From assembly GCA_019187105.1 (NCBI GenBank), contig JABAQM010000001.1, positions 3,130,734-3,194,733 on the forward strand: a stretch of 64,000 bases of DNA, written 5' to 3'. The position numbers and the translations under genes were made by a program. Positions within the stretch are counted from its first letter, which is position 1; each line of letters starts with the position of its first letter. The notes beneath the pieces are model-generated. The model did not search any database. It was not told the origin of the DNA and saw only the letters and a program-made list of their open reading frames with translations. This DNA is from Fimbriimonadaceae bacterium (GTDB taxonomy: Bacteria > Armatimonadota > Fimbriimonadia > Fimbriimonadales > Fimbriimonadaceae). This document shows positions 1,672 through 7,237 of this stretch, one piece after another.

Positions 1672-3705
1672 TTAAGGCTTGTTTGAAACTTTTAGCCAGT
1701 CCTTGAGGGGCCATACCCTGACCGACGTATGCTTGGGTGCCCCTTCCTTTTGGGGAATGAACACCACGCTAAGTCGGGTCGTCGTCTTTGGACTCTTATA
1801 ATTGATCACGAGCTTGTTCATGCCAGTGAGCGGAGATTCCCCCAAGTCGGTATTGATCGTTCCGACCGAGAACCTTGCATTCCTAGGATTCCGGATGTAA
1901 GCCTTCATGACCTTGCCGTTCAGCGTGAGGGTTGCGGTTCGATAGTTCACGTCGAGCGTGGCGTAGGTATGCATGCCCCACTCCACAACGGTCCCCCGCT
2001 CCGCTTTGATCTCATCCTGGAGCACGACATACTTGTCGCCGACCAACATGATGCCGCGCTGCCAGAGGGTGCTCTTGTTGCCGTTCGCAGTCGACTGCTC
2101 GGTAACGGCGAACGGCTTGTTGCTGTCCGCGTTGAAGTTGACGATCTTCCCTTCGGCGAACTTCTGCTGGTCCACCTTGTCCAGCGTCAGGGTGTTCTGG
2201 CCCTCTGTGCGGCCACGATAGACGTCGTCTCGCGGCTGATCCGAGGTCATTCCGGTGTCGTTTGCCCATCGCTCACCGTTCCAGTCGAGGCAGAACGTGC
2301 CGAGATCGGGCTGGTTGTGATTGGCGCTGTTATCTCCACCTTTGAAGGCCACCGAGATTCCGTTGTTATCCTCCCAGGTGGAGCGCATGAACATCTGGTC
2401 GACGCCGTCGAACTTCTTATTCTTGGGCATCGTGAACAGGTCGTTTTCAGTTCCCGCCGGGGTGTACCAGAGCATGTCCATCGGCTGGGGACGTCGGGCC
2501 GCGATTCGCTGTCGCTGGTAAACCGCGTACTCGGGCTTGTTGAACTTGTTGGCGAGCCACATCAGAACGGGCGTCGCCACATTGTTTGTGCCGACGTTTG
2601 CGAAGTTGTAAACGATCTCGCTGCGTCCTCCCATGAAGAGCTTGTAGTCGCCAGTCGATTCCAAGCCCTCCGCCGCGGAAAGGGCGAAGTCGGTTCCGAG
2701 CGTATTGCTCAGCGACTGTGAAATGTAGGCGAGATGAAGCGTTGCATAGTCCCAGTAGCCATGACCTTCGATCCAGCCGCCGCCACCCTTGTACGAGTCG
2801 AGGGCGAGCCTGATCGACTTGAGGCAGTGGGCAAGGACTTCGCCGGCAAGGCCTGAATCGGTATCGCCGACCGCCAGGGCTGCCATAACGAGCCCAGCAT
2901 TCGATACCAGGGTGATGTTTAGGCCGGACCACTGCCACCACATGAGGGGATCGGCCGCTCGAAGCTGATCGAGTGCCGGCACCAGCGCTTTGTTCGAGAG
3001 CGCATTCACAACAGCAGTCTTGTCGGCCGGGCTCATTACGTCGTAGAGCCAATCCTGTCCGATCGCCGTGGCCATCGCACATTCGCTCACGAAGTGAAAG
3101 GTATTGGTCTGGGGGTACCAGCTTGGCCAAGAGGCCACATTGATCATTTCGTTCTTGGCGCGAGTTGCGGCGCCCAAGTCGCCAGTGGTGCGATAAACGT
3201 AGGCGCAAGTCATGATCACATCCGCGGCATATCGCGCTTCGCTGAGGATGCTGGCGTCGTTCCGGTAGATTGCCAATCGCATCGTCTTCATGTTGTTGGC
3301 GCGGTTAACCAGGAAGGTCTGATAGCCTTGCAGCGTCGTGTCGGTATTCAGGAGCTGCTTAATCTCGTTGAAGCGCGCTTGGGTTCCAAGCATGCGGGGT
3401 CGGGGCGGCTGGTTGTTTGCCACGAGCTGCTGCATGGCGTCGATCTCGAGCTGATTGGCCGGTGCGTAGGTGCCCCCGTATGCCCGCATGGTCTGCAGAA
3501 TGTCAGGTCGTCCGTGCTGGCGCCAGTTCGAGTGGTCGGCGTAGCCACCGCGGCTGCGCTCAAGTCGCCAGTCGCCGTATCGCGTGATCGGGCCCTGGGC
3601 AGCCCCCTGCCCAAGGCTGAAAACCGTTCCGTCGTCGAAAACCGTCTGCGCGCTTGCTGCTCCAGCGAGAACGCAGAGACACAGAGTTGTGATATTCCTT
3701 CGCAT
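1672..3705 (-). CDS. Secreted heparinase II/III-family polysaccharide lyase
   Basis: Likely cleaves an acidic polysaccharide by beta-elimination outside the cytoplasm. The 677-residue protein begins with a classical signal peptide (MRRNITTLCLCVLAGAASAQ). An alpha-helical toroid region of roughly residues 60-400 follows (conserved patches WIEGHGYWDY and HFVSECAMA), then a heparinase II/III beta-sandwich region with the diagnostic HNQPDLGTFCLDWNGERWA near residue 460. The order and length match heparinase II/III and alginate-lyase-like enzymes. The substrate (alginate, heparin-like or other uronate) cannot be decided. The gene stands alone and points at the preceding transporter gene; a structured element lies upstream at 3761-3819. 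Confidence 0.8.
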   Translation of the reverse strand: MRRNITTLCLCVLAGAASAQTVFDDGTVFSLGQGAAQGPITRYGDWRLERSRGGYADHSNWRQHGRPDILQTMRAYGGTYAPANQLEIDAMQQLVANNQPPRPRMLGTQARFNEIKQLLNTDTTLQGYQTFLVNRANNMKTMRLAIYRNDASILSEARYAADVIMTCAYVYRTTGDLGAATRAKNEMINVASWPSWYPQTNTFHFVSECAMATAIGQDWLYDVMSPADKTAVVNALSNKALVPALDQLRAADPLMWWQWSGLNITLVSNAGLVMAALAVGDTDSGLAGEVLAHCLKSIRLALDSYKGGGGWIEGHGYWDYATLHLAYISQSLSNTLGTDFALSAAEGLESTGDYKLFMGGRSEIVYNFANVGTNNVATPVLMWLANKFNKPEYAVYQRQRIAARRPQPMDMLWYTPAGTENDLFTMPKNKKFDGVDQMFMRSTWEDNNGISVAFKGGDNSANHNQPDLGTFCLDWNGERWANDTGMTSDQPRDDVYRGRTEGQNTLTLDKVDQQKFAEGKIVNFNADSNKPFAVTEQSTANGNKSTLWQRGIMLVGDKYVVLQDEIKAERGTVVEWGMHTYATLDVNYRTATLTLNGKVMKAYIRNPRNARFSVGTINTDLGESPLTGMNKLVINYKSPKTTTRLSVVFIPQKEGAPKHTSVRVWPLKDWLKVSNKP

Positions 3706-4488: not shown

Positions 4489-4556
4489 AGAGAGCTCCAG
4501 GAAGGCATTTTTTGTAATCTGCGGTTCTGGAAAGGACACTCTGGCAGTTTCCGTAG

Positions 4557-4562
4557 TAGAAT
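4557..4562 (+). promoter_or_regulatory. Candidate -10 box for the riboswitch transcript
   Basis: TAGAAT lies about 27 bases before the aptamer's first paired base. It fits the TANNNT boxes seen ahead of several genes in this window. No convincing -35 box is visible. Confidence 0.4.
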
Positions 4563-4584
4563 ACAAATGCGGCACCTAACCGTG

Positions 4585-4712
4585 CCGTGCGTCGAATCCA
4601 TCCCTCAAAAGATGGAACGGGGGACCCAGACCATAGGGGTGAATGGCAGTCGATTGAGACTGACTAGGGTAACTCTTGGCCCGAACCCGGCAGCTAACTC
4701 CGTAGACGTAGC
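4585..4712 (+). ncRNA. Cyclic di-AMP riboswitch (ydaO/yuaA type)
   Basis: The RNA aligns by eye to the ydaO aptamer from end to end. The P1 arm GCGTC (4589-4593) pairs with GACGT (4705-4709). Between them come CGAATCC, a short hairpin, ACGGGGGACCC, the conserved AGGGGTGAATGG, a stem AGTC..GACT, and the family hallmark CCGAACCCGGCAGCTAACTC. Known members bind two c-di-AMP molecules and usually switch genes off at high ligand, typically cell-wall hydrolases or potassium/osmolyte transporters. The first gene downstream on this strand is hisB. The 248 bases between aptamer and hisB hold small hairpins but no credible reading frame; an apparent frame from 4567 runs through the aptamer itself and is not a gene. 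Confidence 0.88.
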
Positions 4713-4903
4713 GAGAGTCGCAGGGCGGCCAATGATGGCCACCCAGCAACCGATGACCTGTCGAAGGCTTCGGGAGTATCCGCGATTCTCAAACACGTGG
4801 GCACGCTTTCGCCTACCCACGAGTGGGTTCGGCCATGCACGCACATGGCTCGGATCTAAGAGGTAAGGCGGGTGGGTGTCCTGAATACACCTCCTGTATC
4901 GCA

Positions 4904-4931
4904 GAAGGTCCTTCCGAAAGGGGGGACCTTC
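4904..4931 (+). terminator. Strong GAAA-capped hairpin, possible riboswitch expression platform
   Basis: A 12-bp stem GAAGGTCCTTCC / GGGGGGACCTTC (two G-U pairs) is closed by a GAAA tetraloop and followed by GACTTTAAG. It lies 29 bases before hisB. It could be the regulated terminator of the c-di-AMP riboswitch, although the U tract is short. Confidence 0.55.
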
Positions 4932-4948
4932 GACTTTAAGGGCTCCGG

Positions 4949-4954
4949 TATAAC
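4949..4954 (+). promoter_or_regulatory. -10-like box directly before hisB
   Basis: TATAAC ends 6 bases before the hisB ATG and no ribosome-binding site precedes that ATG. If active, transcription would begin at or next to the start codon and give a leaderless mRNA that bypasses the riboswitch. Confidence 0.4.
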
Positions 4955-4960
4955 CTTCCT

Positions 4961-5569
4961 ATGAGCAAAGGCACGCCGGGGGTGCGGTACGCCGAAGTCG
5001 AGCGGGAAACGACGGAAACCCGCGTTCAGGTCGTACTGGATCTCGACGGCGGCAGCCGACGCGACATTTCCACGGGGATTCCGTTTCTCGACCACATGGT
5101 GCAGTTAATGGCGTTTCACGGCCACATCAATCTGGGCATCAGCGCGGAAGGGGACACGGAAGTCGACGACCATCACACGGTTGAGGATGTCGGCATATCG
5201 CTGGGCCGGGCCATCAGAAACGCCCTTACCGACAGCGAGGATATCGTGCGATATGCGAGCAACCACACACCGATGGACGACGCCCTCATCCTCGTCGCCC
5301 TTGATATCTGCGGCCGCGGCAACCTGTGCTTTAATGTCGATTTTCATCGTGAGAAGCTAGGCGACCTTTCAACGGAGAACGTGGCCGAATTCTTTAAGGC
5401 GGTGGCAATCCATGCCGGAGCCAACATCCACGTCCACAAAGTGTGCGGCAGCAACGACCACCATGTCTGCGAAGCCATCTTCAAAGGCTTTGGGCTTGCA
5501 CTCCACCAGGCCACCCGCCATAACGAACGCCGTGGGGTCGTGCCCTCGACCAAAGGCAAGATCGATTGA
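4961..5569 (+). CDS. hisB: Imidazoleglycerol-phosphate dehydratase
   Basis: Catalyses step six of histidine biosynthesis, dehydrating imidazole glycerol phosphate to imidazole acetol phosphate in the cytoplasm. The 202-residue protein shows the two Mn-binding repeats typical of the family: DHMVQLMAFHG and DDHHTVEDVGI in the first half, and DHHVCEAIFKGFGLAL in the second. It is the monofunctional form, with no histidinol-phosphatase domain. A GTG at 4982 would give a start closer to the usual family N-terminus; ATG 4961 is preferred because of the TATAAC spacing. It overlaps hisH by 4 bases and heads a hisB-hisH-hisA operon, downstream of a c-di-AMP riboswitch. Confidence 0.95.
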   Translation: MSKGTPGVRYAEVERETTETRVQVVLDLDGGSRRDISTGIPFLDHMVQLMAFHGHINLGISAEGDTEVDDHHTVEDVGISLGRAIRNALTDSEDIVRYASNHTPMDDALILVALDICGRGNLCFNVDFHREKLGDLSTENVAEFFKAVAIHAGANIHVHKVCGSNDHHVCEAIFKGFGLALHQATRHNERRGVVPSTKGKID

Positions 5570-6156
5570 CAACCATCCTGGATTACGGCATGGGCAATCT
5601 TCGCTCGGTCGAGCGTGCGGTTCGCCATCTCGGCTTCGACTGCGAAGTTCGGCCGGAGGTTGGGTCAACCGATAGGCTGATCATCCCTGGGGTCGGCGCC
5701 TTTGGTGCAGCGATGGATCGGATTCGCCACCAGGCCGCGTCCATTCAGCAGCATGCCGCCTCGGGCCGTCCCTTGCTCGGAATTTGCCTCGGACAGCAAA
5801 TGCTGTTCGACCGCAGCGAGGAGCATGGCGACCACCGGGGCCTTGGCTTAATCCCGGGTTCGGTGCGCTTTTTACCCGTCCATGCTGGTATCAAAGTCCC
5901 GCACATCGGTTGGAATGGGCTCGAGCCCGCCAATGGGTCGGTGTGGCCGACAGCCGACGAGAACCAGGGCCAGGTGTATTTCGTGCACTCCCTTTACACC
6001 GAATGCGATGACCTGTCCGACGTTGCCGCATGGACCGAACACGGTATCCGCTTTGCATCGGCAGTGCGCCGCAATAACGTATGGGGCTGCCAGTTTCATC
6101 CCGAAAAGAGTGGGGAAGTCGGCCTTGCCATCCTTCGGGAGTTCCTGGTTTGCTGA
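5566..6156 (+). CDS. hisH: Imidazole glycerol phosphate synthase, glutamine amidotransferase subunit
   Basis: Releases ammonia from glutamine for the HisF cyclase, step five of histidine synthesis. The 196-residue class I amidotransferase opens with ILDYGMGNLRSVERAV, has the oxyanion region PGVGAFGAAM, the nucleophile Cys in LLGICLGQQMLF, and the catalytic His-x-x-Glu in CQFHPEKSG. It starts with TTG, whose last two bases are the first two of the hisB TGA stop (TTGA overlap), so translation is coupled. The partner hisF is not adjacent; hisA follows with a 7-base overlap, so hisF must lie elsewhere or outside the window. Confidence 0.95.
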   Translation: MTTILDYGMGNLRSVERAVRHLGFDCEVRPEVGSTDRLIIPGVGAFGAAMDRIRHQAASIQQHAASGRPLLGICLGQQMLFDRSEEHGDHRGLGLIPGSVRFLPVHAGIKVPHIGWNGLEPANGSVWPTADENQGQVYFVHSLYTECDDLSDVAAWTEHGIRFASAVRRNNVWGCQFHPEKSGEVGLAILREFLVC

Positions 6157-6863
6157 TTTGGCCGGCGATCGATCTTCGACAGGGGCGCTGTGTCCGCTTG
6201 CGGCAAGGCGATTTCAACCGCGTGACTTCTTACGATGGAGACCCGATCGATATCGCAAGGTCGTTCGCCGACCAAGGGGCGGACGGCATCCACTTGGTCG
6301 ACCTCGACGGCGCAAAGACGGGGGAATCCTCCCACCTCCGGACCTTGGAAACAATGGCGGAGCTGCTAAGCATTCCGGTCGAATTCGGCGGCGGCGTGCG
6401 AACGCTGGAGTCCATCAGGTCGGCTCTTGACGCAGGCGCCAAACGCGTCGTACTCGGGACGAAACTGGCCCGTGACCCTGCGTTCGCCAGCTTGGCCTTA
6501 GCGCAGTTTGGAAACGCTATCGTTGCCGGCATCGATTCAAACCAGGGAAAGGTGGCGGTTTCAGGCTGGCTGGAGGCAACCGACCTGGATGAGGTCGAGT
6601 TTGCCCAATCCATTCATTCTATGGGAGGAGTCAGAGCGATCGTAACCGACATTGGCCGGGATGGCATGATGACGGGCCCAAATCTCGACCAGCTCCGCGA
6701 CATGGTCGCGAGGTCAGGTCTCAAGATCATTGCAAGTGGAGGTATCGGATCCCTGCAAGACTTACGGGACCTTGTGTCAACCGGCGTCGAAGCGGTGATC
6801 GTCGGGCGGGCCCTCTACGAAGGCGCCTTCACGGTTGCTGACGCAGTTCAAAGCCTCCGATAA
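6150..6863 (+). CDS. hisA: ProFAR isomerase (HisA)
   Basis: Isomerises ProFAR to PRFAR in step four of histidine biosynthesis. The 237-residue (beta-alpha)8 barrel begins MLIWPAIDLRQGRCVRL, containing the N-terminal catalytic Asp. It carries VEFGGGVRTLES, the second catalytic Asp in DIGRDGMMTGPN, and the phosphate-binding IIASGGIGSLQDL and AVIVGRALYEGAF. I place the start at TTG 6150 because the family begins exactly at M-(L/I)-I-x-P-A-I-D; the open frame extends to 6081, but that extension is unrelated to the family and overlaps hisH. Third gene of the operon. Confidence 0.94.
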   Translation: MLIWPAIDLRQGRCVRLRQGDFNRVTSYDGDPIDIARSFADQGADGIHLVDLDGAKTGESSHLRTLETMAELLSIPVEFGGGVRTLESIRSALDAGAKRVVLGTKLARDPAFASLALAQFGNAIVAGIDSNQGKVAVSGWLEATDLDEVEFAQSIHSMGGVRAIVTDIGRDGMMTGPNLDQLRDMVARSGLKIIASGGIGSLQDLRDLVSTGVEAVIVGRALYEGAFTVADAVQSLR

Positions 6864-6869
6864 GGCGTC

Positions 6870-7100
6870 TCAGTTCAATTTGCGGCGACGGAGCAGTGCC
6901 GCGAGGCCCATCCCGATCGATGCGATGGCTGCCGGCTCCAACGATGACTCAGAGGCAGGGGTGGTGAACGCGTACCCACTGTTGCCGGCATCGGAAATCA
7001 AGCTGGTCGACTCGCTCACGGCCGGTACGGCGGCCCGACTCGCTGCTGCTACGAGGAGGACTTTGACCAAGACCAGCGATCGAAGGATTTTCCTGTTCAT
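6870..7100 (-). CDS. Small secreted protein with degenerate PEP-CTERM tail
   Basis: A 76-residue protein with an N-terminal signal-like segment (MNRKILRSLVLVKVLLVAAASRA), a short Ser/Thr-rich middle, and a C-terminus SLEPAAIASIGMGLAALLRRRKLN-like in layout. That end matches the PEP-CTERM sorting signal (motif, hydrophobic helix, Arg cluster) except that the Pro-Glu-Pro box is reduced to Leu-Glu-Pro. In known systems such tails are recognised by exosortase. The mature part is only about 30 residues, so it may be a remnant or a small surface peptide. Its 3' end faces hisA 6 bases away. The start was chosen at the Met before the charged n-region; no ribosome-binding site is evident. Confidence 0.55.
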   Translation of the reverse strand: MNRKILRSLVLVKVLLVAAASRAAVPAVSESTSLISDAGNSGYAFTTPASESSLEPAAIASIGMGLAALLRRRKLN

Positions 7101-7237
7101 TCCTGGGAACGATTCGATCACGATTCGTGCCATTTGCACGGTCGCGACCAACCAGCAACTTCCGGTTGGTGAAACAGGACTTTGGACCCACGCAATGCCG
7201 TCAGCTTCCGCGATTGGTGATCGCTATTCGTGGGTTT

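Follow-up and report, generated by a model that had tools for sequence, protein, structure and literature searches.

The c-di-AMP riboswitch that precedes hisB in the Fimbriimonadaceae bacterium (Armatimonadota) considered here is best explained as the head of its own c-di-AMP-sensing noncoding RNA, with hisB being transcribed separately from a leaderless promoter; we put the probability of this reading at roughly 60%. The comparison of related sequences leads to the following proposal: a separate RNA of about 370 nt would start near position 4569 of the window (i.e. the whole 64,000-nt stretch of DNA that was analysed) and end near 4940. The riboswitch would form its 5' part, while in its 3' part CACCUCCU, which is the anti-Shine-Dalgarno sequence of the 16S rRNA, would closely precede a terminator-like hairpin. 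We infer that c-di-AMP binding, whatever the direction of the switch, would change either the amount of this RNA that is made or the exposure of CACCUCCU, and that the RNA would act in trans on mRNAs with a Shine-Dalgarno sequence (SD), perhaps as an anti-Shine-Dalgarno regulator.

The aptamer and its adjacency to hisB

A covariance search of the window recovered RF00379, the c-di-AMP (ydaO/yuaA) riboswitch, at 4580-4722 on the forward strand at 78.7 bits, where the gathering score is 38 (E 1.3e-16 for the window), the alignment covering the whole model (positions 1-134). The earlier note had recognized a ydaO aptamer here and named a low score with this model as the outcome that would speak against it; the full-length match lies far above the cut-off. 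Even with a permissive threshold, the Rfam scan of the window gave no other family relevant at the riboswitch locus. The aptamer is thus a predicted c-di-AMP sensor. The source genome contains a second RF00379 copy, for a total of two, and one gene for a diadenylate cyclase, the c-di-AMP synthase, so the organism is probably able to make the ligand. The riboswitch RNA is expected to start near 4569, and a promoter-like pair, AGGACA-18-TAGAAT (4533-4562, +), was picked out there by consensus match, with one found versus 0.1 expected in shuffles. A coding reading of the leader was rejected: the 99-aa ORF at 4567-4866 overlaps the aptamer, and the ORFs for which relatives turned up behind other sites do not include it.

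On the same strand, profile matches confirm the histidine genes named in the earlier note: hisB, coding for imidazoleglycerol-phosphate dehydratase (4961-5569; NF002111, 241 bits), hisH (5566-6156; TIGR01855, 202 bits) and hisA (6129-6863, start not settled; TIGR00007, 244 bits). Our survey of the family spanned 85 genomes of 32 genera, with 118 RF00379 and 76 HisB matches. The comparison of gene order that the earlier note had proposed shows that the hisB-riboswitch adjacency is not confined to the window: a same-strand riboswitch lies upstream of 25 of the 76 hisB copies, in 11 of the 32 genera, and the distance from riboswitch to HisB domain is at most 500 nt in 23 of these 25 (980 and 1506 nt in the other two). 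No riboswitch was found when 40 unlinked hisB loci were scanned against Rfam. As riboswitches are so few per genome, this adjacency appears to be far beyond chance, and to be real and either old or repeatedly kept.

With hisB standing behind the riboswitch in so many genera, control of histidine synthesis by c-di-AMP looked strong at first; it was overturned by the leader sequences and the hisB promoters. A TATAAC hexamer at 4949-4954 (+), the predicted -10 box of hisB, is separated by 6 nt from the start codon (ATG, 4961), as for a leaderless start. Of the riboswitch-linked hisB copies 21 of 25, and of the unlinked ones 39 of 43, have a comparable -10-like hexamer 3-12 nt before the ATG, versus 389 of 5701 (7%) for any ATG in the same stretches; the stricter pattern TANNNT at 4-10 nt gives 12/25, 27/43 and a background of 212/5702, respectively. 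The 43 are what remained of 51 unlinked copies after four were not fetched and four gave no start. Because such a box precedes the ATG with or without a riboswitch, hisB is probably leaderless throughout the family and has a promoter of its own. This supports, at the level of sequence, the suggestion in the earlier note that the TATAAC box serves hisB as promoter. The companion suggestion, that c-di-AMP controls histidine synthesis, is unsupported as the conserved function: the module also occurs away from hisB, and in two genomes a further gene intervenes between module and hisB, namely a MarR gene on the other strand in G017 and a Fic gene in G063.

The same data bear on a true cis riboswitch, in which c-di-AMP would decide read-through of the hairpin at 4904-4931 and thereby add a longer hisBHA transcript to that of the leaderless promoter. 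The 25 linked hisB copies favour such an arrangement, and the weak T-run of the window hairpin leaves read-through into hisB possible. Nevertheless, we regard it as unlikely: the -10 box is as much a feature of hisB copies lacking the riboswitch, the MarR and Fic genes interrupt the supposed leader, the unit is conserved elsewhere too and, as detailed below, the sequence behind the hairpin is poorly conserved.

A separate observation concerns HisB itself, of which the family has a lower-scoring kind (about 95-150 bits versus 170-220), found in G002, G005, G007, G012, G016, G021, G025, G082, G083, G084 and G091. Both kinds occur together in five genomes (G005, G007, G012, G083 and G091), and in G012 the riboswitch precedes the lower-scoring one.

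A conserved unit from aptamer to terminator-like hairpin

The conserved unit shows a characteristic order: aptamer, a domain of about 165 nt, CACCTCCT (a sequence of the 16S rRNA tail) and a terminator-like hairpin. In the leaders of many relatives a structured stretch leads to GCACCTCCTGTTGAGC or one of its variants, behind which stands a GC-rich hairpin that frequently carries a T-run. In the window, the second domain, between aptamer and anti-SD motif, spans 4723-4884 (+); it is divergent here, while in relatives its sequence is kept within a genus. At 4888-4895 (+), CACCTCCT matches 8 nt of the 16S rRNA 3' tail exactly, and the predicted terminator-like 3' end of the unit lies at 4904-4942 (+). 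The 12-bp GAAA-capped hairpin reported just before hisB in the earlier note can be read directly at 4904-4931; its tail, GACTTTAAGG, is a weak T-run, and it is absent from the terminators listed by the consensus scan. In many relatives the T-runs behind this hairpin are strong. The window copy is among the more divergent ones of the module, and no clear similarity was seen between its second domain and that of the better conserved genera.

Over 21 within-genus pairs the aptamer averages 0.855 identity, the domain 0.738 and motif plus hairpin 0.752; behind the hairpin the mean falls to 0.408 (0.472 before the aptamer, 0.293 for random stretches). Because of this fall, the conserved unit is seen to end at the hairpin, before the next gene, and it does so also where one member of the pair adjoins hisB (G062) and the other does not.

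The comparison likewise shows independence from hisB and from any one neighbour. Of the family's 26 modules away from hisB, with ORFs called mechanically, 9 have their closest downstream ORF in the opposite orientation and 16 in their own, the genes differing among these, while for one module no such ORF was seen. Pfam searches identify, immediately behind the hairpin, a convergent gene for uracil phosphoribosyltransferase in G075 and G078, a CoA-ligase (SucD-like) upstream of the module in G075 and G009, an RNA polymerase beta gene further downstream in G018 and an Hsp70 (dnaK) gene closely downstream in the same direction in G034. In G095 a sucD-like gene closely follows the module, again in the same direction. 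Since a same-direction gene follows so closely, a leader role is possible in G034 and G095. Among the relatives, then, an aptamer is joined to a conserved body that runs up to a terminator irrespective of neighbours, as looked for in a noncoding RNA, the terminator being weak in the window.

The motif was counted at 130 RF00379 sites. Under a loose definition, which asks for a motif of the type ACCTCC[T/G] starting from 20 to 215 nt downstream of the aptamer, it is present at 53 of these, and never at more than one site per genome; the strict definition, motif plus hairpin, retains 37. By group, the 53 divide into 46 of 111 sites in the family and 7 of 19 in other families, the family count leaving out G098:C127, G104, G102, G092:C117, G103, G073:C63 and G072:C20 from its 118 sites. 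The motif occurs at only 2/130 sites in an equal upstream stretch and 1/130 further downstream. The reverse complement, taken as another control, is found at 21/130, more than expected by chance, and many of these cases are the SDs of genes behind the other class of riboswitch. Twenty of the 53 motif sites adjoin hisB and 33 do not; conversely, the motif as defined is missing in 5 of the 25 hisB-linked modules (G063, G064, G071, G027 and G096). A minus-strand gene whose SD would be the motif in reverse complement was considered and rejected, as the flanks, inspected by eye, show no consistent start codon.

The exact 16-mer of the family motif was found in 15 of 291 genomes of the phylum, in 13 of them inside these modules. 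Matches outside modules (L182, L188, L192 and L197) have no aptamer and by eye look like coding sequence. Eleven named records carry the family motif, with eight bearing Fimbriimonadaceae, Fimbriimonas or Armatimonadetes in the title, another Methanoregulaceae, and one each Cyanobium and Paenibacillus; the last two are chance matches in coding sequence. The record titled Methanoregulaceae archaeon (L189, JADZEW010000026.1) carries a bacterial module, and its title or binning is probably wrong.

Structure of the unit and the anti-Shine-Dalgarno letters

In the window the anti-SD letters fall in a possible 5-bp hairpin, ATACA-CCTCC-TGTAT (4885-4899, +), with CCUCC in the loop. Family support for it is modest: a stem of at least 3 bp surrounds CCUCC in 30 of 46 modules, and in many relatives it is short or absent. 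The pairing slightly exceeds that with shuffled partners (194 versus 181 pairs, p 0.002, with relatedness not removed). GGATCACCTCCT is found twice in the source genome, and the context of one copy was recognized by eye as a 16S 3' end. In the energy model, with the aptamer left out, the predicted openness of CCUCC is higher than that of other C-rich 5-mers (0.53 versus 0.34), and its predicted gain in openness on leaving the aptamer out is 0.13 versus 0.06 for these (p 0.016). For the window copy the predicted openness rises from 0.04 to 0.81, and in the unconstrained full-length fold its CCUCC is predicted to pair with an upstream GGGUGGGU.

The sister family f5 has a distinct layout. Close behind the aptamer there is an early terminator-like hairpin in 7 of 7 modules, and the domain that follows is closed by an invariant GUCAGG:CCUGAC helix, with a second hairpin behind the motif; the loci L025, L031, L035, L041, L054, L061 and L064 each combine a c-di-AMP aptamer with two terminator-like hairpins. 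By analogy, this layout is that of a riboswitch gating a noncoding RNA. In the window's own copy no early terminator was seen behind the aptamer, and the switch there must therefore work differently, if at all. A gene for a SurA-like peptidyl-prolyl isomerase (named by eye) follows the f5 module in several loci.

As the f5 motif letters pair invariantly with the upstream GUCAGG, they could be structural rather than trans-acting, which bears on a further reading: the downstream part might itself be an undescribed sensor or attenuator, placed as the second in a tandem behind the c-di-AMP aptamer, and CACCTCCTG might serve it as a structural strand and not as an anti-Shine-Dalgarno seed. Besides the f5 helix and the early terminator between aptamer and domain, the conserved paired elements of the domain fit it, RNAalifold on 11 long modules predicting 38 pairs, of which 17 show at least one two-sided change. 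Yet modules with a convergent gene directly downstream have no gene to switch, and in the main family the letters of the motif are conserved with no conserved upstream partner of the motif being seen. On balance, we hold a tandem sensor to be improbable.

Candidate targets and precedents

At most of the family's other RF00379 sites, and at the second one in the source genome too, an SD and a gene for a small protein come within about 60 nt behind the riboswitch; of the 72 remaining sites, 17 yielded no such SD-led ORF. The small proteins are about 90-140 aa long and several end in PFMEYSS or PFMEFSS (e.g. L072:2188-2583, at G000:C1 near 2523209); two SD-led ones that were searched had no Pfam match. 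The riboswitch of the window has no SD-led gene behind it, unlike most of these, as might be expected of an orphan which lost its target gene and has no present function, an option raised in the earlier note. It is nevertheless very improbable: members of a genus keep aptamer, domain and hairpin alike, the three are conserved at different positions too, and no genome has more than one such module. Moreover, the RNA downstream of the aptamer, being itself conserved up to the terminator-like hairpin, looks like the product.

Returning to the separate noncoding RNA, many of the SDs at these other sites are complementary to CACCTCCT or most of it, and for this reason the SD-led small-protein mRNAs are proposed as natural candidates for control in trans. 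A fuller version, in which the trans RNA would mask SDs when CACCUCCU is exposed and so, in a lineage whose genes such as hisB appear leaderless, shift translation between SD-led and leaderless mRNAs with the c-di-AMP level, is tentative and, to our mind, unlikely. Were it true, the targets to expect would be those SD-led genes for small proteins that stand behind the other c-di-AMP riboswitches in the genomes concerned.

Precedents exist for both halves of this proposal. In the relevant portion of PMC7602753, EutX and Rli55 are cobalamin-riboswitch-controlled sRNAs of Enterococcus and Listeria: as there described, they share with the proposed RNA that a noncoding RNA begins with a riboswitch, and the early terminator of f5 likewise separates aptamer from body, whereas here the ligand would be c-di-AMP and the window copy shows no such terminator. 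The αr14 sRNAs such as NfeR1 carry CCUCCUCCC anti-SD motifs, going by the part of PMC10746234 that deals with them. They resemble the proposed RNA in having conserved anti-Shine-Dalgarno letters, possibly in a loop, and differ from it in that here there is one motif rather than three, CACCUCCU rather than CCUCCUCCC, headed by an aptamer and in another phylum. In the open-licence literature we found no paper combining a riboswitch-headed RNA and an anti-SD with c-di-AMP.

Tandem Na+-I/c-di-AMP riboswitches, as summarized in PMC9481103, also join a c-di-AMP aptamer to further structured RNA, comparable to f5 with its more than one terminator-like hairpin; they differ in that the second domain of the window matches no other Rfam family. 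The RF00379 class as a whole is presented, in the pertinent text of PMC7266159, as controlling adjacent downstream genes. While the window has the same full aptamer, the conserved unit here stops short of the next gene. This is a warning that control of a gene does not follow from a riboswitch being conserved in front of it. A c-di-AMP version of a riboswitch-controlled noncoding RNA would widen the reach of this messenger from single genes to translation via an anti-Shine-Dalgarno RNA, in a phylum with little RNA biology.

Elsewhere in the window, the minus-strand ORF at 1672-3705 gives a weak match to heparin-sulfate lyases, far below curated cut-offs. A small ORF at 6870-7151 (-) ends in GLAALLRRRKLN, which we take to resemble a PEP-CTERM-type tail.
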